A stretch of DNA of 64,000 nt from Nitrospira sp. (GTDB lineage Bacteria > Nitrospirota > Nitrospiria > Nitrospirales > Nitrospiraceae): assembly GCA_022226935.1 (NCBI GenBank), contig CP092081.1, positions 2,368,627-2,432,626 on the forward strand, in the 5' to 3' direction. Under the pieces are notes generated by a model. That model searched no databases. It saw only the letters and a program-made list of their open reading frames with translations, and had not been told where the DNA came from. The translations under genes and the position numbers were made by a program. Shown here piece by piece: positions 46,772 to 53,812 of this stretch. The first letter of the stretch is position 1, and each line of letters begins with the position of its first letter.

Positions 46772-47764
46772 ATGACGAGCCCGATCAACAACACGCTGAT
46801 CGATTGCCACGTTCATCTCGCGGCATTACCGGATGGCGACAACGGCTGCTACATCTCTCCCAAAACGCTCCGCAGTCCGCTGTTTCGCTTCCTGCTCTGG
46901 AAGCATGGCCTCTCGCCGAAGCATCCGCGTGAAGCGAACCAGAAATATCTCGCCGATCTCCTGACCGAATTGCGGGCTTCACGGCACGTGCACAAGGCCG
47001 TGCTCCTCGGCATGGACGGTGCGTACGATCAGAACGGCCGGCTCAACCAGGCCGGCACCGATTTTCTGATCGGCAACGATTATGTACTGCACACAGCGCA
47101 GGCCCATCCCGATGAATTGCTGGCCGGCGTGTCCATCAATCCGCAGCGGCGCGATGCCGTCGATGAAGTGCACCGCTGCGCGGAGGCGGGCGCCGTGCTG
47201 GTGAAAGTGCTGGCGAATGCGCAACAATTCGATCCGGCGAACAAAAAATACATTCCCTTCTATCGTGCGCTGGCGGAACGGAAGTTGCCGTTTCTCAGTC
47301 ATGTCGGCTATGAATTCAGCTTGATCGGCAAAGACCAGTCGGTGGGAGAGCCAGACCGGCTTCGCGTCGCATTAGATGAGGGCGTGACGGTCATTGCGGC
47401 ACATGCGTGCAGTTACGGTCTGATCCTCTATGAAAAGTTTCTTCCCACCTTGCATGACTTGGTACGTCGTTATCCGCATTTCTATGCGGATATTTCCGCC
47501 CTCACGTTGCCCAACCGTCTGCGGATGCTGCTGCATCTCCGGAACTATCCGCAGGTCCATGAACGTCTGCTGTTCGGTACCGACTATCCGCTGCCTGTCT
47601 TTCATCTGGCGGCATGGGGACGAGTCGCGATGGGAAGGTTGCGACAACTTCTGCTGACGAAGAACCGCTTCGACCGGCAGGTGGAAGTGTGCCAAGGACT
47701 GCAGTTAGGGTTTCGGTCGATCGGGGATCTCCTTCCCCCTGTGTCGGTACAGGCACCTCACTGA
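46772..47764 (+). CDS. Amidohydrolase-related TIM-barrel protein
   Basis: 330 residues of the amidohydrolase_2 type. It opens with the metal-binding LIDCHVHLAA. The barrel includes LLAGVSINPQRRDAV, VKVLANAQQFDP and FLSHVGYEF (a metal His), then IAAHACSYG and FGTDYPLPVF near the end with the catalytic Asp. Typical members decarboxylate or hydrolyse small aromatic or carboxylated substrates; none can be chosen. It is followed after 11 bases by the sigma factor gene. Confidence 0.8.
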   Translation: MTSPINNTLIDCHVHLAALPDGDNGCYISPKTLRSPLFRFLLWKHGLSPKHPREANQKYLADLLTELRASRHVHKAVLLGMDGAYDQNGRLNQAGTDFLIGNDYVLHTAQAHPDELLAGVSINPQRRDAVDEVHRCAEAGAVLVKVLANAQQFDPANKKYIPFYRALAERKLPFLSHVGYEFSLIGKDQSVGEPDRLRVALDEGVTVIAAHACSYGLILYEKFLPTLHDLVRRYPHFYADISALTLPNRLRMLLHLRNYPQVHERLLFGTDYPLPVFHLAAWGRVAMGRLRQLLLTKNRFDRQVEVCQGLQLGFRSIGDLLPPVSVQAPH

Positions 47765-47775
47765 GCGCGACTGCC

Positions 47776-48273
47776 GTGACACGAGACGAAATTCTCACCC
47801 GCTTGCGCGAAAGGATTCTGACCTTCGCGACATCACGCCTTCAGAAAGATGTGGCCGAGGATCTTACGCAAGAGGTGCTGATGCTGCTGCATGAAAAATA
47901 CGCCCGCGTGACTGAGTTGACCGAACTCGTGCCCCTGGCCTTTCAGGTGCTCCGGTTCAAAATGCTGGATGCCCATCGCAAATCACTACGGCGAGGCGAG
48001 TATAATGACCAATCCGTCGATGACCTGCCGTTGGCCAATCCCGGCGACGATCCGGCCTCACAATTGGATCAGAAGCAGCGTGTCGATCGCTTGATAGCCG
48101 CCGTGAGGCAGCTCGGGGACCGCTGCCGCGAACTGTTCACCTGGAAGCTGGAGGGAAATAGCTTTCCTGAAATTCAAACGCTTATGGGGCAGGCGTCGAT
48201 CAATACCATTTACACCTGGGACCTGCGCTGCCGGAAACAGTTATTGAGTCTAATGGGCGGCTCATGGGAATAA
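47776..48273 (+). CDS. ECF-type RNA polymerase sigma factor
   Basis: 165 residues from a GTG at 47776. Region 2 is seen at DVAEDLTQEVLMLLHEKY and FKMLDAHRKSLRRGE. Region 4 is an HTH at CRELFTWKLEGNSFPEIQTLMGQ and NTIYTWDLRCRKQL. The amidohydrolase stop lies 11 bases upstream. The next gene, 136 bp downstream, has the layout of a membrane anti-sigma factor, so the two may form a signalling pair. Confidence 0.85.
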   Translation: MTRDEILTRLRERILTFATSRLQKDVAEDLTQEVLMLLHEKYARVTELTELVPLAFQVLRFKMLDAHRKSLRRGEYNDQSVDDLPLANPGDDPASQLDQKQRVDRLIAAVRQLGDRCRELFTWKLEGNSFPEIQTLMGQASINTIYTWDLRCRKQLLSLMGGSWE

Positions 48274-48298
48274 TCCGGCATGAGTGTTGCGTGATTCG

Positions 48299-48388
48299 GT
48301 TCCATTTCATGTTTTCTGTTTGCCGTTCCACGTTTTCGTTTCACTCATTCCCTTTTCCGTTTCATCTTTCACATTTTACGTTTTCGTC
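48299..48388. repeat. Pyrimidine-rich degenerate repeats between sigma and anti-sigma genes
   Basis: A run with repeated TTTCAC/ACGTTTT-like words (for example CACGTTTTCGTTTCAC and ACATTTTACGTTTTCG) on the plus strand. It is much richer in T and C than the surrounding DNA. No coding frame and no clear hairpin. It ends about 20 bp before the next ATG. Confidence 0.55.
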
Positions 48389-48408
48389 GCAATTCGCGCG
48401 CGAACCGT

Positions 48409-49701
48409 ATGGCTGATCACGAATTGGAACATCTGTTAGGCGGCTTTGCGGCTGATACCTTGACGCCGGAGGAGCGCAAGCGGCTCTATGCGGCAGCCTT
48501 GCACGATCAGCAGCTGTTCACTGCCCTGGCCGACGAACAGGCGTTGAAAGAGTTGCTGGCGGATCCCGATGTTCGCCGCCGTCTCCTCCAGGCTTTGAAG
48601 CAACCAAGCCCCACCGCAACCGGCAGCACAGTGACGTGGTGGGGTTGGTTGAAAAAACCGGCAGGGCTCGCCTGGGCAGGAGGGTTGGCGGCAGCCGTCT
48701 TTGCCATCGCATTCGGGACCAGAATCTATCAAGAGAGCCTCGACCGGGCAGCCCAATCGGTTGTGACCGAGGAGGCCAAACCGGCCGCGCCATCGATACA
48801 ACGCGCACAACCAGCCATGGAGCCAACAGCATCTGCGCCGGCGCCGGAACGGAAAACCAAAGAGAAGACCGATGCGGCCAAGAATGACAGACGCGCCGAC
48901 AAGCTTGCCAAACGCGAGCAGCCCCTAGCGGGCAGGGCGTCGGAGCAGGCTGCGTCCAAGTCTCTGGCTGATACGGCCACACCTCAGCGTGAGCGCGATG
49001 AATCCAGCAACCGAACCCCGATGGCGGCGGCCGAAAAGAAATCAACCAGCACGCCCCCATCAACTGACCGGAAGCTCGCTGCTCCCGCACCGCCTCCGGC
49101 AGCAGCTCCGCCTCTCTTGCAAGCGCCGGCCGGATTTTCGGCGGCGCGTGCTCCAGCCCCGAAGAAGAGCGCCCGAGCCCTCTTTTATGGCGACGAATCG
49201 AGCCCCAGCATCGGTCAGGCGAAACCATTGGGCCTTCGCTACAGTTTTGTGACGAGGGGCACCGATGGCCGGACGCAGGAACTCACGGCAGCGATGGTTG
49301 CGCGAAGCAGCGAGCCAGTTCGCATTACCGTGCAGGCGACGCAGGAATCGTATGTGCAGCTGCTCCAAAATCTTGGCTCTGCCGGCACCAGGCTCTGGTG
49401 GCCGCCGCAAGAAACCGGCAAGATCTCCCTCAAACTGCAGGCTGGAACACGGACCGAGATCCCCATGCCGCCTCCGGCGGAAAACGGCCTGATCACGCTC
49501 ATCATCCGGCTCTCTTCGAAACCCTTCGGGCCGTTGACGATGCAGGAAGTCGGTATGCTGGACCGATTCTCCTCGTCTCTGCTCATCGAAACCGTTTCTC
49601 CCGGCACGACCACGGGCGTTCAAGAACAAGCGACGTATGTCGTAAGCCAAGATCCTTCCACCAGCGCCCAACTCGCCGTCGAGATACCGGTCGTTCAGTA
49701 A
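48409..49701 (+). CDS. Probable membrane anti-sigma factor with DUF4384-like C-terminal domain
   Basis: 430 residues. The N-terminal cytoplasmic part (1-70, HELEHLLGGFAADTLTPEE) is anti-sigma-like but has no zinc-binding Cys/His. A helix at about 84-104 crosses the membrane. A long Ala/Pro/Lys linker follows (about 120-250). The C-terminal domain (about 265-430) is beta-rich with VRITVQATQESYVQLL, LWWPPQETG and LIIRLS, resembling DUF4384. Function inferred from the position next to the sigma factor. Confidence 0.65.
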   Translation: MADHELEHLLGGFAADTLTPEERKRLYAAALHDQQLFTALADEQALKELLADPDVRRRLLQALKQPSPTATGSTVTWWGWLKKPAGLAWAGGLAAAVFAIAFGTRIYQESLDRAAQSVVTEEAKPAAPSIQRAQPAMEPTASAPAPERKTKEKTDAAKNDRRADKLAKREQPLAGRASEQAASKSLADTATPQRERDESSNRTPMAAAEKKSTSTPPSTDRKLAAPAPPPAAAPPLLQAPAGFSAARAPAPKKSARALFYGDESSPSIGQAKPLGLRYSFVTRGTDGRTQELTAAMVARSSEPVRITVQATQESYVQLLQNLGSAGTRLWWPPQETGKISLKLQAGTRTEIPMPPPAENGLITLIIRLSSKPFGPLTMQEVGMLDRFSSSLLIETVSPGTTTGVQEQATYVVSQDPSTSAQLAVEIPVVQ

Positions 49702-50988: not shown

Positions 50989-51045
50989 GCCCCCCTTCTG
51001 AAAGGATTCCCCGATTCATTCCATACCCTCCGTAAAGGAGGAATT

Positions 51046-53289
51046 ATGGAGCACCACCAAGCCATTCCTACATCGGACCTGTCAGCATCTCGGTCGGATC
51101 CCCGCTACTACCAAATCGCAAGCCTGAGCACCCTTCTCATCTATGGTCTGTGCTGGCTCCACTTCGATCTGTCGATCTGGCAGATTGCGGTGACGATCGG
51201 AACCGCATTGCTGACTCAATGCGTCGGGACCGTCCTCGTCAAGCTTCCGGCCTTCGATCCCAAGAGCGCCCTGATTTCTTCACTGTCATTGTGCCTCCTG
51301 TTGCGCACCGATAATCTCAGCGTCGCCGCATTGGCCGCCCTCATCGCCATCGGCAGCAAGTTTATCCTTCGCTGGCATGACAAACACCTCTTCAATCCGA
51401 CCAATCTGGCCTTGACCGTGATGCTCGGCAACGGGCTCGGATGGATCTCGCCGGGTCAATGGGGGCAGGCCGCCTGGCTCGCCTTTCTCATCGCCTGCCT
51501 GGGGAGTTTGGTGGTCACCCGCGCCGCACGCGCCGATGTCACGCTGGCGTTCCTCGCCTGTTATGTCGGGCTCCTGTTCGCGCGGGCAGTTCGACTCGGT
51601 GATCCAGTCACGATCCCACTCCATCAGATCGAAAGCGGCGCCCTGCTCATCTTTGCCTTCTTCATGATCTCGGACCCGAAGACGACGCCGGATTCACGCA
51701 TCGGCCGTATCGTCTATGCGCTCCTCGTGTCTTTGGCTGCGCTCTATGTGCAATTCGGACTATTCAGGCCGAACGGGCCGCTCTGGGGGCTCATCGCCTG
51801 CGCGCCGTTGGTGCCGGTGATCGATCACCTACTTCCCGGCTCGCGCTACCACTGGGCACGCGCTTCCACCGGTGCGTCTCCTCACTCGGCGCCACAACTA
51901 GTCCACAATCTCAGCCCTGTTCTGTCATCAACCAAGGAGGTTCCTATGCGACGCGCCATCGTTCCGTCATTATTTCTTACCTTGGGCCTGCTCGCCTGGG
52001 GTGGCGACGCCTCAGCCTTCTGCGGCTTTTACGTCGGCAAGGCCGATACAAAGCTGTTCAATAAGGCCTCCGAGGTGGCCATCGCGCGGCACGACAACAA
52101 AACCGTGATCACGATGGCCAATGATTTCAAGGGCGACGTGAAGGAGTTCGCGCTGGTGGTGCCGGTCCCGACCATCTTGGAGAAAGAACAGATCCACGTC
52201 GGCGATCCGGCCCTGCTGAAACATCTGGCCGATTACTCGGCGCCTCGGCTGGTGGAATACTTCGACCAGAATCCCTGCCTCCGCTACGAGCTGATGGAAC
52301 GCCGCAGCATGGACGCCATGAAGAACGTGGCGCCGGCGGCCGCTCCGCGTGAGCGCGACAAGGCCCTGGGCGTGACGGTGGAGGCACAGTATACGGTCGG
52401 TGAATACGACATCCTCATCCTCTCCGGCAAGGAAAGCAGCGGCTTGGAAATCTGGCTGACCGAGAACGGCTACCGCATCCCACAAGGCGCGTCGGCAGTC
52501 CTGCAGAGTTATCTCAAACAGGGCATGAAATTCTTCGTCGCGAAGGTGAACCTGGGAGAACAGACTAAGCTCGGCCTGACGCACCTCCGCCCGCTGCAAA
52601 TCGCGTTTGAATCGCCCAAGTTCATGCTGCCCATCCGGCTCGGCACGGTCAACGCCGACGGCGCGCAGGAATTATTCGTCTATTTCCTCACGAAGCAGGG
52701 CCGCGTCGAAACCACGAACTACCGGACGGTGCGGTTGCCGGACGCGCAGGAGATCCCGCTCTACGTGAAGGATACGTTCGGCTCCTTCTACCGCGACCTC
52801 TTCAGCCAACAGGTGAAGCGCGAACACGAGCGCGGCGTTTTCATGGAATATGCCTGGGATATGAACTGGTGTGATCCCTGCGCGGCTGATCCCTTGTCGG
52901 CCGAAGAGTTGCGCAGTCTCGGGGTGTTTTGGCAGGAAAGCACCGGCCGGATGGGGAAAGGCAGGCCGATGGCGCACAACGTCTTTCTGACCAGATTGCA
53001 CGTCCGCTACGACGCCGCGCATTTTCCTGAAGATCTGATGTTCCAGGAGACATCGGACCGCGGCAATTTCCAGGCGCGCTATATCTTGCGCCACCCGTGG
53101 ACCGGGACCGACGACTGCGCGGCCGCGACGGCTTACCGCCAACAATTGCGGGAGCGGCACGAACGCGAGGCCCAGACCCTGGCCTCACTGACCGGTTGGA
53201 ATATCAGCGAGATCCGCAACACCATGAACTTGGCATCACTGCCGGCGGATGGGGAGAAGAAATGGTATCAGCGGTTGTGGAATAACTAG
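51046..53289 (+). CDS. Joined open frame: RnfD-like membrane protein and DUF2330 protein
   Basis: One frame of 747 codons without a stop. Residues 1-290 form a membrane domain with about nine helices and the block ISDPKTTPDS (208-217), typical of RnfD/NqrB-like proteins, though the usual flavin-binding Thr context is altered. Residues 301-747 begin with Met301 (ATG at 51946) preceded by AAGGAGG five bases upstream, then a signal peptide ending SAFC and a DUF2330 domain (GFYVGKADTKLFNKASEVAIARH..., FALVVPVPT, and TDDC near the end). Both halves are complete proteins. Either it is a genuine fusion or two genes that lost an intervening stop. The ATG has a GGAGG site. An inverted repeat lies upstream. 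Confidence 0.8.
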   Translation: MEHHQAIPTSDLSASRSDPRYYQIASLSTLLIYGLCWLHFDLSIWQIAVTIGTALLTQCVGTVLVKLPAFDPKSALISSLSLCLLLRTDNLSVAALAALIAIGSKFILRWHDKHLFNPTNLALTVMLGNGLGWISPGQWGQAAWLAFLIACLGSLVVTRAARADVTLAFLACYVGLLFARAVRLGDPVTIPLHQIESGALLIFAFFMISDPKTTPDSRIGRIVYALLVSLAALYVQFGLFRPNGPLWGLIACAPLVPVIDHLLPGSRYHWARASTGASPHSAPQLVHNLSPVLSSTKEVPMRRAIVPSLFLTLGLLAWGGDASAFCGFYVGKADTKLFNKASEVAIARHDNKTVITMANDFKGDVKEFALVVPVPTILEKEQIHVGDPALLKHLADYSAPRLVEYFDQNPCLRYELMERRSMDAMKNVAPAAAPRERDKALGVTVEAQYTVGEYDILILSGKESSGLEIWLTENGYRIPQGASAVLQSYLKQGMKFFVAKVNLGEQTKLGLTHLRPLQIAFESPKFMLPIRLGTVNADGAQELFVYFLTKQGRVETTNYRTVRLPDAQEIPLYVKDTFGSFYRDLFSQQVKREHERGVFMEYAWDMNWCDPCAADPLSAEELRSLGVFWQESTGRMGKGRPMAHNVFLTRLHVRYDAAHFPEDLMFQETSDRGNFQARYILRHPWTGTDDCAAATAYRQQLRERHEREAQTLASLTGWNISEIRNTMNLASLPADGEKKWYQRLWNN
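51934..51948 (+). promoter_or_regulatory. Internal ribosome binding site and ATG of the DUF2330 domain
   Basis: AAGGAGG (51934-51940), TTCCT and ATG (51946-51948), in frame with the upstream RnfD-like frame and directly before a signal peptide. Independent translation of a 447-residue DUF2330 protein is therefore likely. Confidence 0.75.
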
Positions 53290-53303
53290 CAGCGGACAGA
53301 AAT

Positions 53304-53328
53304 CGGAGGCCGGAATAGCCGGCCTCCG
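53304..53328. terminator. Terminator-like hairpin between convergent genes
   Basis: CGGAGGCCGG, loop AATAG, CCGGCCTCCG: a perfect 10-bp stem between the stops at 53289 (+) and 53372 (-). No T-run. Confidence 0.65.
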
Positions 53329-53371
53329 AAACGCCACCCTCTCTGTCCTCAGATTCGATATCGGGCAGGAA

Positions 53372-53812
53372 TTACTTCGTGGCGCAATCGCCCGTGCGTT
53401 TGCCGTCCACCTTCATCGTCACCGACAAGGCCTTGTCGCCTTTGGGCGTCGCTTTGCGGACGACAGAAAAACCGGTGTTGGAAACCGTGCCTTCCACGCG
53501 GGTGATCGCGTAGACGCCTTCAATATCGTAACTGACCGTCCCGCCATGCATCGACACGTTCATGACCTTGTTCGCCGGATTGGGTTTGAATCCGTTTAAA
53601 GCATAATAATTAAACACCGCATCGGGATTGGCCAGGTGTTCCTCCTTCACGCATCGGGTATGGGTGTCCGGCTTGCCCGCCTCGCCGCTGCTGCTTTCGG
53701 TCACCGCCGTCACCTGATACTCACCCGGCTTCAGAGGGACCGCCTCTGCTCGCACCGTCGGCGCCGCGCAGAGAATTCCCGCCATCGCACACAGCCCCAT
53801 ACTTACCTTCAT
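53372..53812 (-). CDS. DUF3617 family exported protein
   Basis: 146 residues. Signal peptide to about VRAEA. The DUF3617 hallmarks are GEYQVTAVTESSSG, TRCVKEEHLANPD (Cys) and KRTGDCATK at the C-terminus, where two Cys probably form a disulfide. Small periplasmic protein of unknown function found widely in Gram-negative bacteria. It ends 83 bp from the convergent DUF2330 gene. Confidence 0.8.
   Translation of the reverse strand: MKVSMGLCAMAGILCAAPTVRAEAVPLKPGEYQVTAVTESSSGEAGKPDTHTRCVKEEHLANPDAVFNYYALNGFKPNPANKVMNVSMHGGTVSYDIEGVYAITRVEGTVSNTGFSVVRKATPKGDKALSVTMKVDGKRTGDCATK

Follow-up and report, generated by a model that had tools for sequence, protein, structure and literature searches.

The window analysed here, a stretch of 64,000 nucleotides from a Nitrospira sp. 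genome (contig CP092081.1), contains at positions 51046-53289 of the forward strand a single stop-free open reading frame (ORF) of 747 codons that joins an RnfD-like half to a DUF2330 half, as the initial annotation had claimed and as ORF and Pfam analysis confirmed. The membrane half (residues 1-270; 51046-51855) matched NQR2_RnfD_RnfE (PF03116) over residues 134-263 (E 1.5e-12; 47.9 bits against a cut-off of 27.7), while residues 322-666 gave a full-length match to DUF2330 (PF10092; profile positions 3-278 of 279; E 5e-82; 275.6 bits against a cut-off of 24.7). Between the two lies a hypervariable linker (residues 271-300; 51856-51945) that contains an internal Shine-Dalgarno (SD) sequence AAGGAGG (51934-51940), followed after 5 nucleotides by an ATG at 51946 (M301) in frame with the membrane half. 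This ATG opens a predicted signal peptide (M301-A324; 51946-52017), MRRAIVPSLFLTLGLLAWGGDASA followed by FCGF, with a predicted cleavage site between ASA and F, and the mature DUF2330 part with its stop codon occupies 52018-53289. The order of SD, five bases, ATG and signal peptide in mid-frame had also been recognized previously and is found exactly at these positions. A further AAGGAGG (51035-51041) precedes the start of the RnfD-like half (pattern match 51035-51048), and the two starts of this gene account for two of the four AAGGAGG-N4-7-ATG sites matched in the 64-kb window, in comparison to 0.56 expected by chance. A search for a promoter upstream of the internal start at 51946 found none.

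A GC-rich hairpin (53303-53329) separates the DUF2330 end from a convergent gene for a DUF3617 exported protein (53372-53812, reverse strand); it was listed as terminator-like on the reverse strand, and hairpins of this type were no more numerous than in shuffled sequences. On the other side of the locus, an ECF-type sigma factor gene and a following gene that perhaps encodes the regulator of this sigma factor occupy 47614-49701 (forward strand). The listed sigma start overlaps a gene of the amidohydrolase family (46772-47764), indicating that the true start is probably further downstream.

The full-length protein model was poor (pLDDT 54) and only its membrane half was used for a Foldseek search, which retrieved RnfD (8rbq_D, E 8.7e-8). 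The window protein resembles RnfD of the Rnf complex (8rbq_D, 9eri_D and 8ahx_D) in fold and over the C-terminal half, where the FFMxSDPKTTP stretch lies, but its membrane half is shorter, lacks the [ST]GAT motif of covalent FMN attachment in a motif scan and has no adjacent rnf genes. It scored 39.8 bits in comparison to the curated cut-off of 207 bits for rnfD (TIGR01946), no rnf gene and thus no rnfABCDGE cluster was present among the ORFs adjoining 51046-53289, and no second PF03116 gene was found in the genome. Among 149 membrane halves, a search for [ST]GAT returned three loose SxAT matches only, at no common conserved position. Because the motif is absent, the idea that the membrane half carries a covalent flavin was dropped, and the earlier label of a flavin subunit is likewise doubtful. 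Ten helices were predicted in this half, with 15 Lys and Arg residues on the presumed inner side and 3 on the outer. This distribution suggests that the membrane half ends inside the cell (N-in/C-in), so that the internal signal peptide could insert normally.

The DUF2330 half possesses five highly conserved Cys residues, including a WCDPC motif, and three conserved His residues, which, as a guess, would fit an exported partner in redox chemistry or metal handling. Its model was good (pLDDT 80.5), and a Foldseek search with it gave no match below E 0.076. VIA-align returned common beta-sandwich matches only, the best being baculovirus P35 (Z 10.9), and no family assignment is claimed from such a fold. 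In the same phylum, more distant DUF2330 proteins lack an RnfD-like partner. Literature searches found no paper naming DUF2330 and nothing relevant on RnfD-like proteins of Nitrospira.

A scan of named genomes with the membrane half identified over 550 relatives, and among the best 80 of these loci, which came from Acidobacteriota, Eisenbacteria, Rokubacteria, Thiotrichaceae, Verrucomicrobia, Dadabacteria, Krumholzibacteriota, Deltaproteobacteria and others, DUF2330 was directly next in 75, with three of the other five reaching a contig end. In a sample of 396 genomes around an acidobacterial one, all 18 close relatives of the membrane half (one in each of 18 genomes) adjoined DUF2330, six of them in fused form. 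The linkage between RnfD-like and DUF2330 proteins, for which the initial annotation knew of no precedent, is therefore strong. No third conserved gene was found beside the pair in relatives, and gene neighbourhood thus gave no hint of function.

Within the family of the window genome, 82 of 175 genomes searched gave matches and 27, the window included, held one open frame over both halves; the other open-frame relatives were 71–92% identical to the window protein. Closed genomes are among them (G000, Ca. N. defluvii FP929003 and N. moscoviensis NZ_CP011801), and a 28th fused genome of the class belongs to a different family. Gene order was kept in homologues and the stop between the halves varied, both fused and split forms occurring. 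Of the two circumstances that had been named as speaking against the joined frame, separate genes are indeed common among relatives, whereas a sequencing error or missed stop is excluded by the recurrence of the open frame.

Classification of 139 pairs by junction type gave 57 with an ATGA/TGATG overlap, 39 fused, 22 separated by a gap and 21 with longer overlaps, mostly of 16–152 nt (one listed value, 2267, is no real overlap). In non-fused relatives of the class the ATGA/TGATG junction predominated (34/41). The SD of these split relatives lies within the last codons of the membrane gene, whose tail ..QRRFS* reads CAA AGG AGG TTC TCA TGA, and fused relatives carry the same SD shifted by one register (..AAG GAG GTT NNN ATG). 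Judged from this comparison, pairs that overlap by ATGA have repeatedly become fused through a change of register, a point that the initial annotation had missed. Two pairs of close sisters differ in state by a single inserted base, an A just 5' of the SD in one (L064 and L096) and a base between SD and ATG in the other (L067 and L120). Mapping of the fused and split states on a tree of both domains, built without the linker by a quick method with approximate branch support, required 11 changes, nine of which were forced by the starred branches, and placed the window in an exclusively fused clade of 16 genomes. The SD-like site, the ATG and the signal peptide were kept in every fused case (28 genomes of the class and 11 loci elsewhere). 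A third junction type was found at three loci of one small lineage, where the membrane gene ends in ..TKEVI* on ATATGA and DUF2330 has a new upstream ATG. At eight further loci, out-of-frame overlaps of 56–152 nt extend into the DUF2330 coding region, and such overlaps recur in unrelated phyla.

We interpret the locus, with a probability of about 0.7, as a translationally coupled pair with an optional stop, which would give rise to a read-through chain, probably cut, and to an independently initiated DUF2330 protein. In the arrangement common in the family, the first gene holds the SD of the second near its end, and its stop overlaps the start of the second (ATGA). A shift of register within this tail, which is free of constraint, would remove the TGA and place the first gene in frame with the second. 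By read-through, ribosomes would then make one chain of membrane half and DUF2330; its internal signal peptide would insert into the membrane N-in and probably be cleaved by signal peptidase I, with release of DUF2330 outside the cell, while initiation at the conserved internal SD would supply free pre-DUF2330. Termination-reinitiation is impossible in the fused gene, and this second route would consequently need de novo initiation under elongating ribosomes. We infer that both routes may be used; the earlier suggestion that re-initiation could give fused and free products alike appears likely given the retention of the internal SD, ATG and signal peptide.

Substitution patterns in the 16-genome fused clade indicated which parts of the junction are maintained. 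The SD codons AAG and GAG were invariant (16/16), in comparison to uniform AAG in 0/14 invariant-Lys columns and uniform GAG in 1/24 invariant-Glu columns, and only 14 of 141 invariant two-fold columns were monomorphic, indicating that the internal SD is maintained at the nucleotide level, as a signal. The linker, in contrast, evolves at approximately the third-position rate and without codon-position bias (190/151/168 and 146/145/145 substitutions over the three positions, in comparison to 1059/494/4193 in the domains), and its residues are thus free, in agreement with the earlier impression that residues just before the ATG are not conserved. All length differences between linkers were nevertheless multiples of 3, reflecting at least three frame-keeping indels, and no linker contained a stop (0/16), where neutral simulation at matched divergence expects about 5–6 of 16 (P = 0.028). 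Stop-free linkers and frame-keeping indels together argue, with moderate strength, that translation has to pass through this region. In reporters for two E. coli gene pairs a premature stop at +38 nt caused 80–90% loss (PMC10666635), and such strong reduction of coupling may be the reason that stops are avoided in the linker.

These observations bear on an explanation by drift, in which free DUF2330 alone matters, the stop was lost neutrally and the joined product is broken down. The frequent swaps between fused and split states and the unconstrained linker residues are what drift would produce, but the missing stops are not, and neither is the behaviour of two other ATGA pairs of the window, taken as controls, both of which remained unfused with gene-length frames, one in 28 close orthologues and the other in essentially all 136 genomes. 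We regard drift as improbable, at roughly one chance in seven.

Slightly less probable still is a true functional fusion, in which the chain stays uncut, the signal peptide serves as an eleventh helix that tethers DUF2330 outside and the internal start is a relic. An open frame held across the 16-genome clade, nine or more changes of state within the family and independent fusions in Acidobacteria and Deltaproteobacteria are in keeping with such a fusion. A relic start, however, would not be expected to remain constrained at silent sites of its SD, which was lost in no fused lineage seen, and a functional tether agrees poorly with a linker devoid of amino-acid selection. The signal peptides of fused and split relatives are also alike: 28/28 fused and 39/40 split cases possess a cleavage site of the AxA type, which makes cleavage the simpler prediction. 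Cutting of a signal peptide placed after ten transmembrane helices is itself a prediction only, and permanent anchoring of DUF2330 through an extra helix, as initially envisaged, appears less likely and is unsupported by the kept cleavage site. Finally, a sequencing, assembly or frameshift artefact has next to no probability and is refuted for the window, for although two isolated sister cases that differ by 1 base, one of them in an A-run, could individually be errors, 26 other family genomes, closed ones among them, carry the open frame.

Under the coupled-pair interpretation, a cut read-through chain would yield two proteins almost identical to the products of separate genes, with the SD adding free DUF2330, and this would explain the switching back and forth between states. 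A more general proposal, which we put forward tentatively and at somewhat below even odds, is that the junction is indifferent to frame. The tail of the first gene would then be a mere runway for ribosomes to the start of the second, and small indels would flip the locus between a two-gene operon, a polyprotein processed by signal peptidase and a long out-of-frame overlap with mature products unchanged, so that fusion and splitting would be interchangeable ways of expressing one pair of membrane and exported proteins.

The principle of coupling is already known, and the feature described here is real, recurrent and partly selected. Coupled ATGA/TGATG pairs (Huber et al. 2023, PMC10666635) share with this locus the SD of the second gene inside the first; their stop-start overlap is present in 57 of the 139 relatives, where the partners are a membrane and an exported protein. 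In the window and 38 other loci, by contrast, no stop overlaps the start, as loss of the stop has merged the two frames, and termination-reinitiation cannot operate. The FbcH cytochrome b/c1 polyprotein of Bradyrhizobium combines a multi-helix membrane protein with an in-frame internal signal peptide, an exported partner and a predicted signal peptidase cut. The window gene resembles it in having one frame and an internal signal peptide with a predicted cleavage site after a membrane domain that is predicted to end inside, and differs from it in its conserved internal SD and start and in close relatives that keep two genes. A literature search found no description of repeated switching in which the internal start is always retained, or of an RnfD-like/DUF2330 pair in many phyla.

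This pair has undergone about ten fusion and splitting events independently, the internal start being kept each time, and this natural series makes it testable how coupled genes turn into fused genes and whether polyproteins processed by signal peptidase are commoner in bacteria than the single case of FbcH cited here. It also has a consequence for automatic annotation, as the same pair would be recorded as one protein in some species and as two in others. The RnfD-like/DUF2330 module is now defined across many phyla, and DUF2330 may work together with the membrane protein. Eight genomes of the Nitrospira family retain decayed or fragmentary remnants of the pair, indicating that the module is dispensable and often lost. 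A second, solitary RnfD-like subfamily (L231-L241, score about 110) was encountered in the sampling around the acidobacterial genome without adjacent DUF2330, and the neighbours at the loci read resemble repeat proteins of the FG-GAP/ASPIC-UnbV type, suggesting that the exported partner of RnfD-like membrane proteins may vary.
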